This document shows positions 25,597 to 35,207 of a stretch of 43,694 nucleotides of DNA, in pieces. Numbering within the stretch: the first letter of the stretch is position 1; every line of letters starts with the position of its first letter. Origin of the DNA: a virus; IMG/VR virus record IMGVR_UViG_3300024520_000152, positions 1-43,694 of that record; one strand, written 5' to 3'. Below the pieces are notes generated by a model, which did no database searches, was not told the origin of the DNA, and worked only from the letters and a program-made list of their open reading frames with translations. Both the position numbers and the translations under genes were made by a program.

Positions 25597-26031
25597 TTAT
25601 GTCACCGTTACGGCGATGTTGTAGAGACGGACTATCACGGGTTGTGGCGTGAGGATCAAGCCAGGCGGTCGGATATTGGCCTCGACCTCGAAGGTCGCGA
25701 TTTCCGAATGGAACCGCCCGTCGGTCGCGGTCGCGCCTGGAAGGTCGACGACCCCCTGGACACTCCATTGCCCGATCTCGTTTAGCTGGCCTGCGAGCAT
25801 TTTGTAGCGTGCGAGCCCGTCGACGCCGCCCGAGGAGAGCGCCGCTGTAACCCGTAAGAGGGCCCCCGAGGGCTTAAGAAACTCGAAGGTAAGCTCGCCC
25901 CCGGAGTCGAGCGCCGTCGAGATGTCGACCGCGACCCGCTGGGGCGGCGTTACGGCCTCGTTGACCTCCTGGAAGAGAAGCTCGACCAGGGGCTCGTCGA
26001 GGAGGCGATTGGCTTTGGGGGTCGCGACCAT
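25597..26031 (-). CDS. Probable baseplate/fibre-associated beta protein (BppU-N-like), 144 aa
   Basis: The sequence runs LLDEPLVELLFQEVNEAVTP, ISTALDSGGELTFEFLKPSGALLRV, then a gap and ARYKMLAGQLNEIGQWSVQG. The pattern (strands, LKPSG turn, Tyr-x-x-x near the middle, Gly-x-Trp-x-x-x-Gly before the last strands) resembles the immunoglobulin-like N-terminal domain of siphophage BppU baseplate proteins. ATG 26031 overlaps the stop of the 882-residue protein (TAATG), so the two are coupled and probably act together in the virion. Confidence 0.7.
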   Translation of the reverse strand: MVATPKANRLLDEPLVELLFQEVNEAVTPPQRVAVDISTALDSGGELTFEFLKPSGALLRVTAALSSGGVDGLARYKMLAGQLNEIGQWSVQGVVDLPGATATDGRFHSEIATFEVEANIRPPGLILTPQPVIVRLYNIAVTVT

Positions 26032-28679
26032 TACGGTTTCCTTCGGATGTTCGCCTCGAGGGCCAGGGTAGTTTCCTGGCGAGCTCGCAAACGGAATTGG
26101 CGGCGGGACAAAAGACTAGCGGATTGAGTCGGGGATATCCGCGTCGGGAGAGTGAACGCGCGGAAGATCTCGACGGCGAGCTCGATGTCGGGCGGGAGAG
26201 GCGCGGGCTCGTCCTCGAGGGACCTCCGGATCGTAGCCCCGAGCGCGAGCGTAATCTCCTGGCGAGCGACGAGCGATACGGTACGGCGCCCGAGGACGGC
26301 CCTGGCTTGCGTCCTGGCGAGGATTGTCGATCGGGCGACGATCCGGCAAACCGTCGCCGCAAGCTCGATGTCGGCCAGGAGGACGGCGATCCCAGGCCCC
26401 GCGAAGCGGATCTCGGCGACGACCGGGACGACAAGGGGGATCGCCAGAGGGGCGGGGAAGATCGTAAACCCGACATCGACGACCGGAACGACCAGGGGAA
26501 GCGCGAGCGCGTCGGGGAGGACCGTAACGAGCCGCGCGACGACGGGGACGACGAGCTCCAGCTCGAGCGCGGCCGGGAGGATCGTAACGAGCCGCGCGAC
26601 GGCGGGCGCGACGAGCTCCAGCTCGAGCGGCGGCGGCATGATGAGCATTCCGACGCTCGCCGCGGGGACGACCAGCGGGAGCTCCAGGGCGAGCGGGAGG
26701 ACCGTAACGAGCCGCTCGACGACCGGAACGACCAGCGGGAAAGCGAGCGCTAGGGGGACGACGGTAACCAGGCGCGCGACGCTGGGGACGACTAGCGGCA
26801 ACGCGAGCGCCGTCGGGAAGATCGTAAACCCGACATCGACGACCGGAACGACCAGCGGGAAAGCGAGCGCTAGGGGGACGACGGTAACCAGGCGCGCGAC
26901 GGTCGGGAGGACGAGGGGAATCGCCAGAGCGAGGGGGGTCTGGGTTGTACCGGAGACAACAACCGAAACGACCGGGACGAGGAGCGGGAGCGCGAGCGCA
27001 AGGGGAACGACCGTAACCAGGCGCGCGACGTTGGGGACGACTAGCGGCAACGCGAGCGCGAGCGGGACGACCGTAACCAATCGCTCGACGTTGGGAACGA
27101 CAAGCGGGAGCGCGAGCGCAAGGGGAACGACCGTAACCAGGCGCGCGACGCTGGGGACGACTAGCGGCAACGCGAGCGCCGTCGGAAAGATCGTAAACCC
27201 GACATCGACGACCGGGACGAGGAGCGGCAAGGCGAGCGCGAGCGGGACGACGGTAACCAGGCGCTCGACGACCGGGACGAGGAGCGGCAAGGCGAGCGCG
27301 AGCGGGACGACGGTAACCAGGCGCTCGACGTTGGGGACGACAAGCGGGAGCGCGAGCGCGAGCGGGACGACCGTAATCAGCCGAGCGACGTTGGGCGCCA
27401 GGAGAGGCAGCTGGATCGCCTCTGGAAACTGGATCAAGTCCTCCCCGATTACGAAGTCGAGGCGGAGCCGGTTGCCAATCGTGTTGTTGTACGATGTCGT
27501 ATAGCCGGTCGCTGAGAACGAGCTATGAGTTACCTCGATCGCGTCGGTGTCGCCGATGTTGGGGAGGTCGATTGCGAGGGCGCTCGAGAGAGAATCGCAA
27601 TCCGTTGTCGACGCCGAATGGTCGATGAGGTTTGCAATCGAGCGCTCCTCGCTCGCGCTCCATTGGCCCAAGGCCCATTGCGCCCCGCGCTGGTTGTTTA
27701 CCGCCCGATTTACATCGGTAAAGACCATTATTGTTTGAAGGCCGATAATCGTCAGAGGGCGGAAGCCGACGGCGCGCGTCTGGGTCGTATTGGTCGTCGG
27801 GGTAATGACCTCCTCTAGTGCGACGCGGTTACCATTTTGGAAGCGTATTGCGCACCAAGCAATCGCCATCGCGTTGGCCTCGTCGACGGTCGTAAGCCGG
27901 AAATCCTTGTTGTTGTGTGCGGGGAAAGTGACGTTTACCGCTTCGTGAAGGACCGGAACATACGCCCCAGGAAATCCAACGAGGTCGATCCGTACGCTTT
28001 GAAGGGCTCGGTTCGACCTGATTGTCCCGCCGACCTTGTGGCCCGCTACGTTGTCGCGGTCCGCCATCGCGAAAAAGGCCTGGTCGACTCCGGCGCTCTC
28101 TCTTACCGCGCCGCCAAACGCAAAGCGATAGTGATTCGAGCGGCCTTCGTTTAAGCCTCGGTCGATCGTACCGAGGAAAACCATTTGCGGAGGTTGCTCT
28201 TCGCTCCAGCCCGGATCGACATCGACCTCCCCGTCGATGCTCGAGGAGGAGGTCGCTCTCCCACAACCGAAATCGATCTCGCCAAAGAAGCAAACGACAG
28301 TAATAAGTACGGCCGCCGTGGGGAAGTTTGTCGACGTGATTCGAGCTCCTCCAGAGATAAGCGCCGCCGTCCATCGGGCGTCGACCGCGTTGGTCGTTCC
28401 GCTTAAGAGGATAAACCCAGTCTCGCTACCGCCCCGCCCCGAGTCGGTTACGGACGCGTTTCCGTCCTCGGACCGCGCCCCAAAGTTTACATGATTGGTC
28501 CCGTCGTAGAACCCTATGGAATACCGCGCATGATTCGCCCTAGTGCCGACTGTGAGCGCTCCGGTAACGATGAACCAGATTCCAACGGGCGTCCGCGACT
28601 CTCCCCCAATCGTAAAGTCCTGGGTCGGCCCACCGGACGTGATCGCCGCCGCGGTTACGTTCCGAATGGAGATGGCCAC
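26031..28679 (-). CDS. Large fibre-like protein with 17 tandem 20-residue repeats, 882 aa
   Basis: Residues 1-~415 form a Gly/Ser/Thr-rich beta domain that resembles the N-terminus of the gp48 fusion (shared GTRA, FPTxAV and GVDxxFxAM-type stretches). Residues ~418-755 are about 17 tandem copies of a 20-residue unit, typified by VVPLALALPLVVPNVERLVT. The C-terminal ~110 residues hold two ~50-residue related copies ending in LARQEITLALGATIRR and RARQETTLALEANIRR. Start is GTG 28679. The unit is too Pro-rich for membrane helices and more likely forms a stacked extended fibre. I infer an alternative or additional adhesin. The forward ORF over the repeats is a shadow. Confidence 0.8.
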   Translation of the reverse strand: MAISIRNVTAAAITSGGPTQDFTIGGESRTPVGIWFIVTGALTVGTRANHARYSIGFYDGTNHVNFGARSEDGNASVTDSGRGGSETGFILLSGTTNAVDARWTAALISGGARITSTNFPTAAVLITVVCFFGEIDFGCGRATSSSSIDGEVDVDPGWSEEQPPQMVFLGTIDRGLNEGRSNHYRFAFGGAVRESAGVDQAFFAMADRDNVAGHKVGGTIRSNRALQSVRIDLVGFPGAYVPVLHEAVNVTFPAHNNKDFRLTTVDEANAMAIAWCAIRFQNGNRVALEEVITPTTNTTQTRAVGFRPLTIIGLQTIMVFTDVNRAVNNQRGAQWALGQWSASEERSIANLIDHSASTTDCDSLSSALAIDLPNIGDTDAIEVTHSSFSATGYTTSYNNTIGNRLRLDFVIGEDLIQFPEAIQLPLLAPNVARLITVVPLALALPLVVPNVERLVTVVPLALALPLLVPVVERLVTVVPLALALPLLVPVVDVGFTIFPTALALPLVVPSVARLVTVVPLALALPLVVPNVERLVTVVPLALALPLVVPNVARLVTVVPLALALPLLVPVVSVVVSGTTQTPLALAIPLVLPTVARLVTVVPLALAFPLVVPVVDVGFTIFPTALALPLVVPSVARLVTVVPLALAFPLVVPVVERLVTVLPLALELPLVVPAASVGMLIMPPPLELELVAPAVARLVTILPAALELELVVPVVARLVTVLPDALALPLVVPVVDVGFTIFPAPLAIPLVVPVVAEIRFAGPGIAVLLADIELAATVCRIVARSTILARTQARAVLGRRTVSLVARQEITLALGATIRRSLEDEPAPLPPDIELAVEIFRAFTLPTRISPTQSASLLSRRQFRLRARQETTLALEANIRRKP
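26418..27426 (-). repeat. Tandem 60-bp repeat array encoding Pro/Leu/Val units
   Basis: About 17 units of 60 bp (one is 69 bp) encode a 20-residue motif of the type Val-Val-Pro-Leu-Ala-Leu-x-Leu-Pro-Leu. Some stretches are nearly identical over 90 bp or more (26760-26850 against 27120-27210), so the array could expand or contract by recombination or slippage. The copies at the two ends are more diverged. Confidence 0.9.
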
Positions 28680-30919: not shown

Positions 30920-33298
30920 CTAGCCTCGGAGGAACCTTTGCGCCAGGGCGACCAATTGGGATTGGGAGCCAAGCTTTTGCCCGTAAAGGCCCTTTTGCTT
31001 TACCGTCTCGACGAGCGAGCGGGCCGCCTCGACCAGCGTCGGGGCCCCGGTGTAGGCCTTGAACGCATCGAACATCCCGAGGGCCTTCGGGTTGTAGCCC
31101 TCGAGGCCGAGGCCGAGGGGGATAATCAGAGCGCTTTGATAGGAGTCGCTCTCGACCTGGGTTTGGATATCCCAGGGAAGCTCGGAGCGGCTCGAGTAGC
31201 CTGGCCCGTCGATGTCGCGGACCGCGAGCCTCTGGAAATTCCCGTTGGCGGGGTTGGTCCCGTCCTGAGCTCGACGCCAGGCGAACGACCAGAAGCCCGC
31301 GCAAAGCTTCAAGATCGCTTCGCGTACCGGCGCTGCGTTTTCGGGGAGCGGTCCCTCGACATCGGGGAAGGGCGTCCCGAAAACGGAATTATGGGCACCG
31401 AGGAGAGCGAACCCGATATAGAGCTCCTCGTTGGGACGCGTGACACCGTAGCGCGCGGGCTTCGGGAAAGGCTCCTGGTCGGCGACCTTGCCGGTCGTTT
31501 TCGCGGCGAACATTCCCGAGGGCGTTTGAGCCCAGCGGAGCGCGTCGCATTGGGCAACGATCCAGGGTAGGAACCGCTCGCGACAATCGTCGTCGCCAAA
31601 GGCGTACGCGTTCACCATTACGTCGAGCTTCCAGCCCGTCTCGCGCCCGAAGCCTCCGAAGCCTCGAGCGGGGTTGCGGGCAAGTTGCTCGAGGACCTCG
31701 CGGAGGTCGCCGCCCTCGGTCTCCATCGCCTCCATGCGGCCCATCGTCGCCGCTTTGTAGAGATAGAGCTTCGCGAGCGGGTCGTTGCCGACCGTCGCCA
31801 GAAACTTCGCCGCCTTGTCGCAACGAATATGATGCTGCCCGTCGATCGGGTCGATGCCATGGTCGTATTGGTTCGAGGGGTCGCCCTTGAGGATCGAGCG
31901 ATACGGCGCGTCGAGCTCGGGAACGCGGTTCCCGTCTCCGGCGGCGAAGTATCCGAAAGGGCCGTCCCCGCCAGGTTGCCAACGCTCGTTGTAGATGTTC
32001 CAGCCCGGCTTGCCCTCGCCGTCGAGATGGTTCTCCGGGTTGACCGGCAAGCCGCCGGAGGCATAGAGGCCGCGTTGACGCGCCGCGTATCGGCAAAACT
32101 CGATCTCCATCGAGACTTTGCCCTCGACGCTCCCGGTCGCGAGGATGTCGGGACGGATCCAGGGCGTGATATCCCAACCGCCGGTCCATCCTCCATACTT
32201 CCCCGATCGGAATTGGAGGTAACCGGCATTCTCCGCGCCGGTCGTCGGGGAATTCCAGGCCTTCGCGAATCGCTGGCGCTCGTCGACGGCCTCCTCCGCG
32301 ATGTCGTCGCGGAGATGCTCGAGATCGGTTGGCGCCGTCGCGCATTGCACAAGGTAGCGCGGCGACAACGGGGAGCCCCAGCTCGCCAGGTCCTCGCCCT
32401 CGGCGTTAGTTCCGTCGATGGCCACGCCCCAGGAGCGCCCGCCTTCGGGTTGGTATCCGCCCTCGCGATGGACGACGAGCCGCCAATGCCTCTCCCGCAT
32501 CATATCGAGGAGGTTCATGCGCCCGCCCTCAAGCGGCGCGACGAGCGGGTAAACCCGATGCCCGCCCTCGAGATAGGCCTCGCCGACATGCGGGTCGTCC
32601 CATTCACTCGTAACGCGCCAACCGTCGGGGACGGCCAGCTCGAGGGAATCAAAGTGGAGATCGCCGACGAGGGGGATCGCGGCGTTATGGAAATTCAGGA
32701 GGAGCTCGATCGCGTCGAGGCGATGTCCAACGGAGATGAACGCTTGAGCCGCGCCGGCATAGGGGAGGAGCTTCGATCTCATCTCGCCCGACGAGCCGTT
32801 GGGCTTATGAGTAAGCCAGGTCGGGCGCATGCCCGTTATCGCGACCGGCCCGAATCGCTCCCATCGGGGAGCTTTGGATCCCCCATGTTGGAGCCCCGTC
32901 AACGACGACCGATAAACACGTCCGTCCGCGTCGCGCAAGCGGAGCCCCATCGCGCCATACGGCAAAACGAGATCCCAGACCCCCTCGCCCGGGTCGGGCG
33001 CCCCGAAGCTCGACGCGGCCTCCTCTCGGACCTCGAAGTCGAATGGAGTCGCCCACGTAAGGAGACCTTTCGGAACCGCCGCGAGGACCTCGATCACCGC
33101 TGGCTCTCCGAAGGCGTCTCGGCGACATACCTCGACCTGGGTCCGAAGCGGCGTCGATCCGGCGAAAACGCGACAGGGGTAATACCCCCCGCGTCCCCGA
33201 GTCCAGGTCGGCGTCTCCCGAGGCATGGGAAAGGTTGCGCGGACGACATGGGCGCCCTCGAGGGGCGTAGCTCTGAAGATTCCTAAAACGCGGGACAT
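30920..33298 (-). CDS. Large probable glycan-active virion protein, 792 aa
   Basis: The start at 33298 has AAAGGAGA seven bases upstream (an extra nine residues are possible). The N-terminal ~170 residues are beta-rich, and the middle (~150-320) contains further sandwich-like strands. From ~330 on the chain is helical with aromatic/acidic motifs (GWDITPWIRPD, NIYNERWQPGGDGP, NQYDHGIDPIDGQHH, KLYLYKAATMG, GRETGWKLDVMVNAYAFGDD), the look of an (alpha/alpha) toroid as in polysaccharide lyases and glycoside hydrolases. The overall layout recalls the YetA/PcRGLX rhamnogalacturonan-lyase-like group, from memory only. I infer a capsule or exopolysaccharide depolymerase. Confidence 0.6.
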   Translation of the reverse strand: MSRVLGIFRATPLEGAHVVRATFPMPRETPTWTRGRGGYYPCRVFAGSTPLRTQVEVCRRDAFGEPAVIEVLAAVPKGLLTWATPFDFEVREEAASSFGAPDPGEGVWDLVLPYGAMGLRLRDADGRVYRSSLTGLQHGGSKAPRWERFGPVAITGMRPTWLTHKPNGSSGEMRSKLLPYAGAAQAFISVGHRLDAIELLLNFHNAAIPLVGDLHFDSLELAVPDGWRVTSEWDDPHVGEAYLEGGHRVYPLVAPLEGGRMNLLDMMRERHWRLVVHREGGYQPEGGRSWGVAIDGTNAEGEDLASWGSPLSPRYLVQCATAPTDLEHLRDDIAEEAVDERQRFAKAWNSPTTGAENAGYLQFRSGKYGGWTGGWDITPWIRPDILATGSVEGKVSMEIEFCRYAARQRGLYASGGLPVNPENHLDGEGKPGWNIYNERWQPGGDGPFGYFAAGDGNRVPELDAPYRSILKGDPSNQYDHGIDPIDGQHHIRCDKAAKFLATVGNDPLAKLYLYKAATMGRMEAMETEGGDLREVLEQLARNPARGFGGFGRETGWKLDVMVNAYAFGDDDCRERFLPWIVAQCDALRWAQTPSGMFAAKTTGKVADQEPFPKPARYGVTRPNEELYIGFALLGAHNSVFGTPFPDVEGPLPENAAPVREAILKLCAGFWSFAWRRAQDGTNPANGNFQRLAVRDIDGPGYSSRSELPWDIQTQVESDSYQSALIIPLGLGLEGYNPKALGMFDAFKAYTGAPTLVEAARSLVETVKQKGLYGQKLGSQSQLVALAQRFLRG

Positions 33299-33337
33299 TG
33301 GGTTTTCTCCTTTGGGTCGAGACACTACCCTCTAGGC

Positions 33338-33877
33338 ATGCATCGGATCGATACGCCTGGGAACGAAAATGGTATGTTCTCTGCGGGCAACCCCGTCGCC
33401 GGCATCGAGGGGACCGTCCTCGGCTTCGATTGGTTCAACGCCCTTCAAGAGGAGGTCGCGTTTACCATCGAGCAGGCGCCCGCGTCTGGGGTCCTGGTCA
33501 AGGGGACAAACACCCAACTTCGGACCGCTATCGTCGCGATCATCGACAACCTTACGGCGCGAGTCTTCACGTTCACGGCGCCCGAGGACCTCACGGCGGG
33601 CGAGGGGTTCCTATTCGAGGACTCTTTTGGGGTAATTCGGGAGACGGTACTCGACACGTTCACGGCCAACATGGAACGCACGGGGACTTTCACGCTCGAG
33701 AAGAACGCTACGGAGCCGATGACCGCGGGCGATAGGGTGTACTGGAACCAAGCGGGCCGCGAGGTACGCAACACGGCCGGCGGCGGGTCGCACGTATACA
33801 TCGGAACGTGTCGGGTTTCGGAGCTCGCGGCGGCGACGACCGTTTCGGTCCTCGTTGGGCAACCGCAAAACGTCTAG
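33338..33877 (+). CDS. Fibre-type N-terminus fused to a DUF2190-like domain, 179 aa
   Basis: Residues 1-~70 (MHRIDTPGNENGMFSAGNPV, FDWFNALQEEVAFTIEQ, KGTNTQLRTAI) are clearly related to the start of the fibre protein at 21704 (MHRIDTP, DDWANAVQEEV, DNTQLRTAI). Residues ~75-179 look like a DUF2190 cement domain (FTAPEDLTAGEGFLFE, EPMTAGDRVYWNQAGREV, GTCRVSELAAATTVSVLVG). The chain thus combines a tail-type attachment module with a capsid-decoration fold. The ribosome-binding site is weak. It is divergent from the 792-residue gene, with 39 bp between. Confidence 0.75.
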   Translation: MHRIDTPGNENGMFSAGNPVAGIEGTVLGFDWFNALQEEVAFTIEQAPASGVLVKGTNTQLRTAIVAIIDNLTARVFTFTAPEDLTAGEGFLFEDSFGVIRETVLDTFTANMERTGTFTLEKNATEPMTAGDRVYWNQAGREVRNTAGGGSHVYIGTCRVSELAAATTVSVLVGQPQNV

Positions 33878-33968: not shown

Positions 33969-34917
33969 TCATTGGGTTTCCATAAAAGATCGAATGAACG
34001 TGGCCGCGAGAGGCGCGACTATGGCGTTTCCGTAACCGCGCAATCGTCCCACACGGGCGGGAGTCCCATGAGCCAGCGGGAATGTTCCGGGTTCAATTGG
34101 GCGCCATCGGTGACCGCTCGGGTCGTTACAGAGGACCCATTCTGGACGATCCCAGAAGCGAGCGAGGTCTCCGTCGGTAGCGGCGCCCTGTCTATCCCCC
34201 GAAACTCCCCCGAGCGAACCTTCGAGGCCGCCGTCGGCGTCGCCCAGGCCACGTAATTCTCCATCGTGTTGCCGAGCTCCGTCGCGACCGGCGTCGCCCA
34301 GGCCGCCGCCGCCGTCGCTCCCGCGAGCTTGTGTTTCTCCTGGACCTTCGCCCAATCGACGTTGGGCCCCGTGTCCTTGTGATCCCTCGAGCATGGAGTC
34401 GGCCAGGTCGCCGCGAGCGCCGCCGCTTGAAGATCCCCCGCCGCTTCCGCCGACTCCGCTCCCCCGGTCGGCGTCCGAGGGGTCGGCCAGCTCGCGTAAC
34501 TCGTCGCATCGACGAGATTGGTCCCCGCGTGGCCCGCCTTCATATGCTCCGCTCGATGGTTGCTCGAGTGATCCTTGGCGGTCGTCGTTGGCCACGAAGT
34601 AAAGCCTTTGCCGGATATGCGGAGCCCCGACGCTCGCCGCGCCAAGATCAACCGAGCCGACGGCGTAACCCGCGTTTTCCAGGTCAGCGTAAACAAGGTC
34701 GATCCACTCGAGGCCACCAACCGGCCAGGCGAAGCGCATAGCTCCAGACGCCGATACCGGCGAAGAGATGAACCTGGGTGTACGGTTCGAGCTCGTCGGG
34801 ATCGATGTTCTGGACTCGTCGCTCGTCGACAACGCCGTCCGCGATCAAGCCGCGCTTTATCAAGCGCCGAAGCCAGGCGGCGGCGAAAGCGTCGATCTCG
34901 TTATAAAACGCAGTCAC
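33969..34917 (-). pseudogene. C5 cytosine DNA methyltransferase relic with internal out-of-frame deletion
   Basis: The 5' part (GTG 34917 to TGA 34684) starts VTAFYNEIDAFAAAWLRRLI and reaches motif I, VHLFAGIGVWSYALRLAGW. The 3' part (another frame, to 33969) holds the target-side end: GLEWIDLVYADLENAGYAVG, motif VIII-like GAPHIRQRLYFVA, and motif X-like GRLRGYGNAIVAPLAATFI. The Pro-Cys-Gln catalytic loop (motif IV) and the following Glu-Asn/Gln-Val segment (motif VI) are absent in every frame: LAGW runs straight into GGLEW. About 60-70 codons are missing, and the frame changes at the join (around 34710-34720). As written it cannot methylate DNA. The 5' start overlaps the upstream gene's stop. 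Confidence 0.85.
34019..34720 (-). CDS. WPTP-repeat protein overprinted on the methyltransferase relic, 233 aa
   Basis: A complete frame covers most of the methyltransferase 3' part in a different phase. From TTG 34720 (or GTG 34717) it begins SSGSTLFTLTWKTRVTPSAR and has five Trp-(Pro/Ala)-Thr-Pro/Thr units, each followed by small polar residues (SWPTTTAKDHSS, SWPTPRTPTG, TWPTPCSRDHKD, AWATPVATE, AWATPTAAS). It ends QLNPEHSRWLMGLPPVWDDC. I recall both the SGSTLF start and the NPxxxRWLMG end as conserved in phage proteins often labelled methyltransferase-associated, which argues that this frame is translated. The other frame over the same bases is low-complexity Gly/Asp. Biochemical function unknown. 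Confidence 0.7.
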   Translation of the reverse strand: MVASSGSTLFTLTWKTRVTPSARLILARRASGLRISGKGFTSWPTTTAKDHSSNHRAEHMKAGHAGTNLVDATSYASWPTPRTPTGGAESAEAAGDLQAAALAATWPTPCSRDHKDTGPNVDWAKVQEKHKLAGATAAAAWATPVATELGNTMENYVAWATPTAASKVRSGEFRGIDRAPLPTETSLASGIVQNGSSVTTRAVTDGAQLNPEHSRWLMGLPPVWDDCAVTETP

Positions 34918-35207
34918 TTCGGACGCTCGAGCGAGACCGTCGTATCGGGCTTGCCGCAAAGCTCGCAATTGCGAATCCATTCAGTATGCGAATGCGCCGG
35001 AGCCGCCGACCTCCCCGAGCTCGAACCGTACACCCAGGACCCAAAGAGATGGGCGCGGCAATGCGACTCTCGATCGGCCTGTTCGTCGTTCAAGGCGACT
35101 TCGAGGATCGAGTCGTCTCGGGCTAGCTCCTGGATCTCGCGCTCGGAGAGGCGCATTCCGCCGCCCTCTTTCGCCTTGGCGACGATCCGTTGATGGGGGG
35201 TATTCAT
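34914..35207 (-). CDS. Small Cys/His protein, 97 aa
   Basis: The start at 35207 has AAGAGA upstream. The product MNTPHQRIVAKAKEGGGMRL, SEREIQELARDD is helical first, then has His/Cys residues (SHCRAHLFG at ~48-56 and CELCGKPD at ~81-88) that could bind zinc. It overlaps the methyltransferase relic by four bases (GTGA), so the genes were once a coupled unit. Role unknown. Confidence 0.7.
   Translation of the reverse strand: MNTPHQRIVAKAKEGGGMRLSEREIQELARDDSILEVALNDEQADRESHCRAHLFGSWVYGSSSGRSAAPAHSHTEWIRNCELCGKPDTTVSLERPK

Follow-up and report, generated by a model that had tools for sequence, protein, structure and literature searches.

We suggest that two overlapping phage genes, here designated frames A and B, encode the two subunits of a single C5 cytosine methyltransferase (MTase), a reading to which we assign a probability of roughly 0.8. 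Frame A would encode the catalytic polypeptide with motifs I-VIII and, in the subtype found in the DNA under study, motif X. Frame B, nested within A and provided with its own internal start codon, would encode a second polypeptide comprising a β-hairpin, a variable number of WPTP/LPTP units occupying the site of the target-recognition region, and motif IX. Most likely these products would combine into a single heterodimeric enzyme which methylates the phage DNA, probably against host restriction. What the analysis demonstrates is constraint on both frames, a conserved internal start for B, the partition of motifs and homology between B and the C-terminal part of single-frame C5 MTases; we infer that the frames are translated as two polypeptides, that these form an active enzyme and that B would set its sequence specificity.

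Two frames in a damaged locus

The window, i.e. the entire 43,694-nucleotide stretch of viral DNA analysed, contains two frames on its minus strand which are both open over the same DNA (34019-34724), where the third frame contains six stops. Frame A encodes a C5 MTase with motifs VIII and X, while frame B, in the +1 phase relative to A, encodes a WPTP-repeat protein (Table 1). The translated product of window frame B matches two PHROGs families (phrog_1008; e-value: 9.7e-21; phrog_31772; e-value: 6.9e-14) and the C-terminal part of frame A matches a third (phrog_363; e-value: 6.7e-24), with DNA methyltransferase being the PHROGs label for all three. The original prediction had supposed that the two frames are annotated as two unrelated families; the families are indeed separate in PHROGs, but those of B already carry the methyltransferase label. 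Four of the five W[PA]T[PT] units in B sit one base off the A-frame units LADP, LADS, LGDA and LGDA, so that the proposed conversion of Leu-Ala-Asp-Ala repeats into WPTP repeats one base over was recovered, four units against four. The last motifs of both frames likewise lie on the same bases, as had been claimed (34093-34055 in B and 34088-34029 in A), and the motif X region of window frame A reads RVGRLRGYGNAIVAPLAA.

Table 1. Coordinates of the overlapping MTase frames and their features in the window
Feature	Position	Strand	Support
Frame B, 233-codon WPTP-repeat ORF, 3′ part of putative nested MTase subunit (variable region and motif IX)	34019..34720	-	PHROGs match
Frame A, C-terminal C5 MTase part (motif VIII, linker, motif X), +1 to B	33969..34724	-	phrog_363
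MTase N-terminal fragment, motif I HLFAGIGVWSYALRLAGW, frame differs from rest of A	34684..34980	-	phrog_363 (e-value: 1.2e-23)
Deletion junction, ~34719	34712..34724	-	Comparison with L057
B: SGSTLFTLTWK, predicted β-hairpin strand 1, counterpart of TWPxSGxM module	34676..34708	-	
A: motif VIII GAPHIRQRLYFVA, over RRASGLRISGKGFTSWP of B	34590..34628	-	
B: repeat 1, WPTT	34583..34594	-	
B: repeat 2, WPTP (A: LADP)	34478..34489	-	
B: repeat 3, WPTP (A: LADS)	34394..34405	-	
B: repeat 4, WATP (A: LGDA)	34289..34300	-	
B: repeat 5, WATP (A: LGDA)	34235..34246	-	
B: NPEHSRWLMGLPP, MTase motif IX	34055..34093	-	hhalign alignment
A: GTFPLAHGTPARVGRLRGYGNAIVAPLAA, motif X region, overlaps motif IX of B	34002..34088	-	
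A: GTFPLAHGTPARVGRLRGYG	34029..34088	-	

The window copy is damaged. Approximately 165-170 bp (size estimated against L057, an intact relative) are missing at ~34719, a segment which in intact relatives encodes motif IV (PCQ) and motif VI, plus the matching part of B. Motifs IV-VI are absent from the window copy, motif I (A frame, 34980-34684) is not in the same frame as the remainder of A, and the junction at 34712-34724 fuses frame B on its upstream side with frame A on its downstream side, resulting in an ORF at 33969-34832. Both MTase frames are disrupted at this junction and both are stop-free downstream of it, and the PF00145 score of the window copy (14.3 bits) does not reach the cut-off of 22. 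Since the corresponding stretch of B is lost with the missing segment, the B ORF (233 codons) is 5′-truncated, and its TTG "start" is merely the first start-type codon in the ORF list. Judged from its sequence, the window copy cannot be active as it stands, without motifs IV-VI. The missing segment may represent a real deletion in the phage or an assembly error, either of which fits; an exact 28-mer search of viral_contigs for a phage closely related to that of the window, made in order to date the deletion, found none.

Other genes in the vicinity include a short plus-strand ORF (33338-33877) whose translated product combines a tail-fibre-like N-terminus (phrog_2617; e-value: 2.7e-12) with a head-decoration-like C-terminus (phrog_122; e-value: 9.8e-10). 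Two large minus-strand ORFs (30920-33325, 801 aa; 26031-28679, 882 aa) showed no PHROGs match at an e-value ≤ 0.001.

Motif partition and the start of frame B

In intact relatives the PF00145 motifs I, IV (PCQ), VI and VIII are all encoded in frame A (N15 gp58; PF00145 e-value: 1.1e-15; L057), and B extends back over motifs I-VIII, so that the overlap reaches beyond the variable region in which the second protein had been proposed to lie. A split type is observed in TiroTheta9, Vash, Renna12, Sassafras and others, where A ends soon after motif VIII and B harbors TWPxSGM, LPTP units, EWMMG (motif IX) and GNGVV (motif X). An A stop located 4-29 codons past motif VIII, with motif IX in B, was found in 45 distinct loci, mostly of actinophages and metagenomic phages. 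The annotated start of TiroTheta9 gp77, at 1606, may have been placed too late, since the same open frame already encodes the conserved TWPxSGM part upstream of it.

Single-frame relatives are encoded by prophiFSIL01-1 (gp6), by further phages and by a Tsukamurella plasmid (WP_074850583.1). These enzymes share the LPTP units, the EWMMG motif IX and motif X, but have them following motif VIII within a single frame and polypeptide; the Tsukamurella enzyme also has a KWPRTGTM module, without overlap with motif VIII. A profile built from 47 split-type B proteins matched 16/16 single-frame MTases (e-values: 8e-52 to 2e-70). Alignment of window-type B against these profiles with hhalign gave one match over the hairpin and first repeats (probability: 97; e-value: 5e-11) and a second over the repeats and motif IX (probability: 96; e-value: 8e-9), with the RWLMG of B aligned to motif IX. 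Motif IX is missing from A exactly where B has it. Since the B modules share one frame with motifs I-VIII in other phages and in a plasmid, B is, on these sequence comparisons, the variable region and motif IX of the same MTase, and not the unrelated second protein that was originally envisaged.

The predicted structure of a single-frame member shows a C5 MTase fold, with M.HhaI as best PDB match (e-value: 6e-14); motif IX (pLDDT ~90) and motif X are modelled with confidence and the repeats are predicted to be disordered. Modelled alone, the window B protein reaches a pLDDT of 58, with only the hairpin (residues 10-32) and the WLMG helix better predicted. The recognition role of the repeats is putative and unproven, given their predicted disorder and the poor predicted folding of B alone. 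Among closely related phages with single-frame enzymes (L398, L399, L447 and L469), the number of LPTP units varies widely, as if units had been gained and lost.

When 277 distinct loci were classified by regular expressions, repeats and motif IX were in the +1 frame and motif X in A in 191 loci (plus 21 in which motif X was not found), repeats and motifs IX and X were in the +1 frame in 37 (and in one more whose repeats were assigned to the third frame), everything was in one frame in 19, and repeats were in the +1 frame with motifs IX and X in A in eight, a tally which pools several searches and indicates that the classes exist, not their frequencies. The partition of the M.EcoHK31I type, with motif IX on B only and motifs I-VIII and X on A, is that of ~190 of the 277 classified loci.

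Of 206 loci, 198 have a frame-B ATG 11-68 nt ahead of motif I (shuffled: 140, sd 6). It is preceded by a GGAG-like sequence in 121 loci (shuffled: 32, sd 5, maximum 44), with a Shine-Dalgarno-like sequence at the B start being present in 59% of loci only. The usual form of the start is GACGAACGGAGCATCGAAGATG, the bases of which are read as D-E-R-S-I-E-D in A, and in the divergent locus L238 and its relatives the B ATG follows A's own start by a few bases. Independent internal initiation of B would be the simplest reading.

A single fused polypeptide could also arise by programmed ribosomal frameshifting, with translation starting in A and slipping into B near motif VIII. Split-type A frames do end just past motif VIII, with B supplying the missing modules, and fused single-frame relatives exist. 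We nevertheless consider this improbable, as the A stop differs between the 45 loci in codon (TGA, TAG or TAA), context and position, the window type would need two shifts because the A frame is needed again for motif X, and B has its own conserved start; no shared slippery site near the end of A was evident among the 45 loci by inspection. Somewhat less probable again is that B represents an independent protein with another function, for instance in anti-restriction or regulation, sitting on the MTase gene. B is constrained in its own right (see below) and has no match by sequence among Pfam families, NCBIfam families or PDB chains, as such a protein might, but its modules occur in one polypeptide with motifs I-VIII in the single-frame MTases, and motif IX lies in B exactly where A is without it.

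Constraint on frame B

The openness of B does not stem from the way in which loci were sampled. A set of loci was fetched via A motifs upstream of B (QCHFFAG and VDERSIED), of which 66 distinct loci could be placed by motif search. Over ~268 codons in these 66 loci, A contained no stops, B three and the third frame 799; B is fully open in 63 of them, and two of the three B stops fall in N15-type loci, where a later ATG can start B. The B frame is hence not stop-ridden. When the A protein was held fixed and its own synonymous codons were permuted, a mean of 2.9 stops appeared in B, which remained open in 7.5% of shuffles (the observed number of stops there being zero by construction). The B profile score across 248 loci decreased from an observed 329 bits to 119 (sd 15), with the observed score exceeding all 40 shuffles in 246/248 loci and in 201/203 of those outside the training set of the profile. 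For the window itself, B scored 190 bits, compared to a shuffled mean of 24 (sd 12; maximum 66; 1000 shuffles), and its open frame was retained in 2.6% of 1000 synonymous shuffles of A, which bears out the original claim of two protein-coding frames over the same DNA. The overprinting thus extends beyond chance, since synonymous shuffling with A fixed rarely keeps B open and lowers its score. About one third of the B signal (~119 of 329 bits) is a shadow of A, and the other ~210 bits stem from synonymous choices.

The phase of substitutions was compared across 67 independent pairs with nucleotide identities of 78-97.5%. Outside B, A displays the usual third-position excess (third/first position ratio: 2.26; 67 pairs). 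The catalytic overlap changes in the same direction as A outside B, with third-position change of 0.269 versus 0.419. In the linker the third/first ratio is inverted (0.77; 0.69 in pairs with ≥ 85% identity, 20 pairs against 2), and in the C-terminal motif region it is intermediate (1.38). Because its freedom falls mostly at the third position of B, the "LADA" linker is mainly B in evolutionary terms. Constraint is therefore not confined to the MTase frame, in the substitution phase as in the synonymous shuffling.

It is very improbable that there is no second protein, and that the openness and motifs of B only reflect the conservation of the MTase protein and GC-rich codon choice. A alone does yield the ~119 bits noted above, and long alternative ORFs are common in the GC-rich DNA of the window. 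The remaining bits, however, reside in synonymous choices, the linker evolves in the phase of B, B has an open frame in genes with a GC content of 52-57%, for which 3-6 stops would be expected, and B modules are found in the MTase frame elsewhere. Chance and codon shadow were ruled out on the strength of the shuffled synonymous codons, the stop counts of the third frame and the phase of substitutions.

An out-of-frame insertion like the hidden HNH endonuclease (ShiLan domain) of actinophage methylases, which concerns the same kind of gene and also provides an open second coding frame within it (PMC11855218), can practically be dismissed, as B overlaps the catalytic motifs themselves, beyond any insertion, and shows no HNH domain match in Pfam, NCBIfam or PHROGs, as relatives free of an insertion were not seen, and as the ShiLan domain is a homing insertion in another frame relation whose protein is unrelated to B.

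Distribution, related systems and implications

A scan of viral contigs with B recovered 56 loci, each with A overlapping in the same relation, and in wider searches B was positioned at +1 to A in 226/226 loci, so that the dual coding is widespread and conserved in phages, as foreseen. Among annotated phage records, matches number 179 for B and 218 for A. The divergent B of L238 matches 373 records, chiefly of Mycobacterium, Paenibacillus, Arthrobacter and Streptomyces phages, and the L238 MTase also has a full-length open B frame. A window-type B freed from its partner, alongside a dead MTase frame, was expected, but none was present among the 226 loci, in all of which A is recognisable. The N15 locus gave no megablast match in E. 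coli genomes. In L074, L129 and L179 frame A is interrupted and B is open, through sequence errors or through retention of B alone; these loci are unexpected for an obligate pair unless they contain sequence errors.

The principle itself is not new, given that M.EcoHK31I is known (PMC3404938) and that some records already carry annotation for both frames, namely gp60 of Paenibacillus phage Sitara ("g59 internal gene") and two overlapping methyltransferase genes in PhiXhv-5. In the actinophage records L269-L274 the frames are annotated as two adjacent genes, mostly both as "DNA methylase".

In M.EcoHK31I, a C5 MTase composed of two polypeptides, the large subunit contains motifs I-VIII and X and the small one motif IX alone (PMC3404938). 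The resemblance of this enzyme (YGGCCR) to window-type loci lies in motif IX alone being carried on a small polypeptide, as in B. Its small-subunit gene is said, by Lee et al. in 1995, to lie within the large-subunit gene in another frame, both products being needed in vitro. With that nesting the phage loci share a nested gene in another frame with its own start, here in the same phase throughout and with a conserved ATG and GGAG. The two are likened by motif partition, and they differ in that the target-recognition domain of M.EcoHK31I is predicted on the large subunit, whereas in the phage loci the linker is constrained in B, and in that M.EcoHK31I belongs to a restriction-modification system, whereas the loci here are mostly phage genes. 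M.AquI carries motifs I-VIII on one polypeptide and the distal variable region with motifs IX-X on the other (PMC3404938). This is the same split as in the actinophage subtype. The AquI genes overlap by a few bases only, whereas in the phage loci B runs back over motif VIII and further.

The recognition half of the enzyme may, as a tentative and rather doubtful reading, have been born from the enzyme's own gene, with its modules later moved between frames. The +1 frame of the conserved motif VIII block would already have spelled TWPxSGxM..(W/L)PTP; overprinting of this frame would have given rise to a second subunit with the recognition region and motif IX, which may later have been freed into single-frame MTases (tandem in Tsukamurella). 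The reverse direction, compaction of a single-frame enzyme, also fits.

A literature search of limited reach yielded no described phage case of the overlap, nor any account of how widely it occurs, of the conserved internal start, of a linker whose evolution is inverted or of modules that shift between frames. An arrangement known from a few enzymes thus appears to be far more widespread and conserved than has been described. Under the two-subunit reading, anonymous phage WPTP families gain a likely function, and an explanation is provided for the many phage cytosine MTases which seem to be without motif IX and to contain a low-complexity linker. It also serves as a warning that an annotated MTase, when expressed alone, may be an inactive enzyme. 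Hundreds of phages furthermore provide a large natural set of long, conserved same-strand overlaps. Because the same modules are found there with and without overlap, it becomes possible to test how overlapping genes evolve and are expressed.
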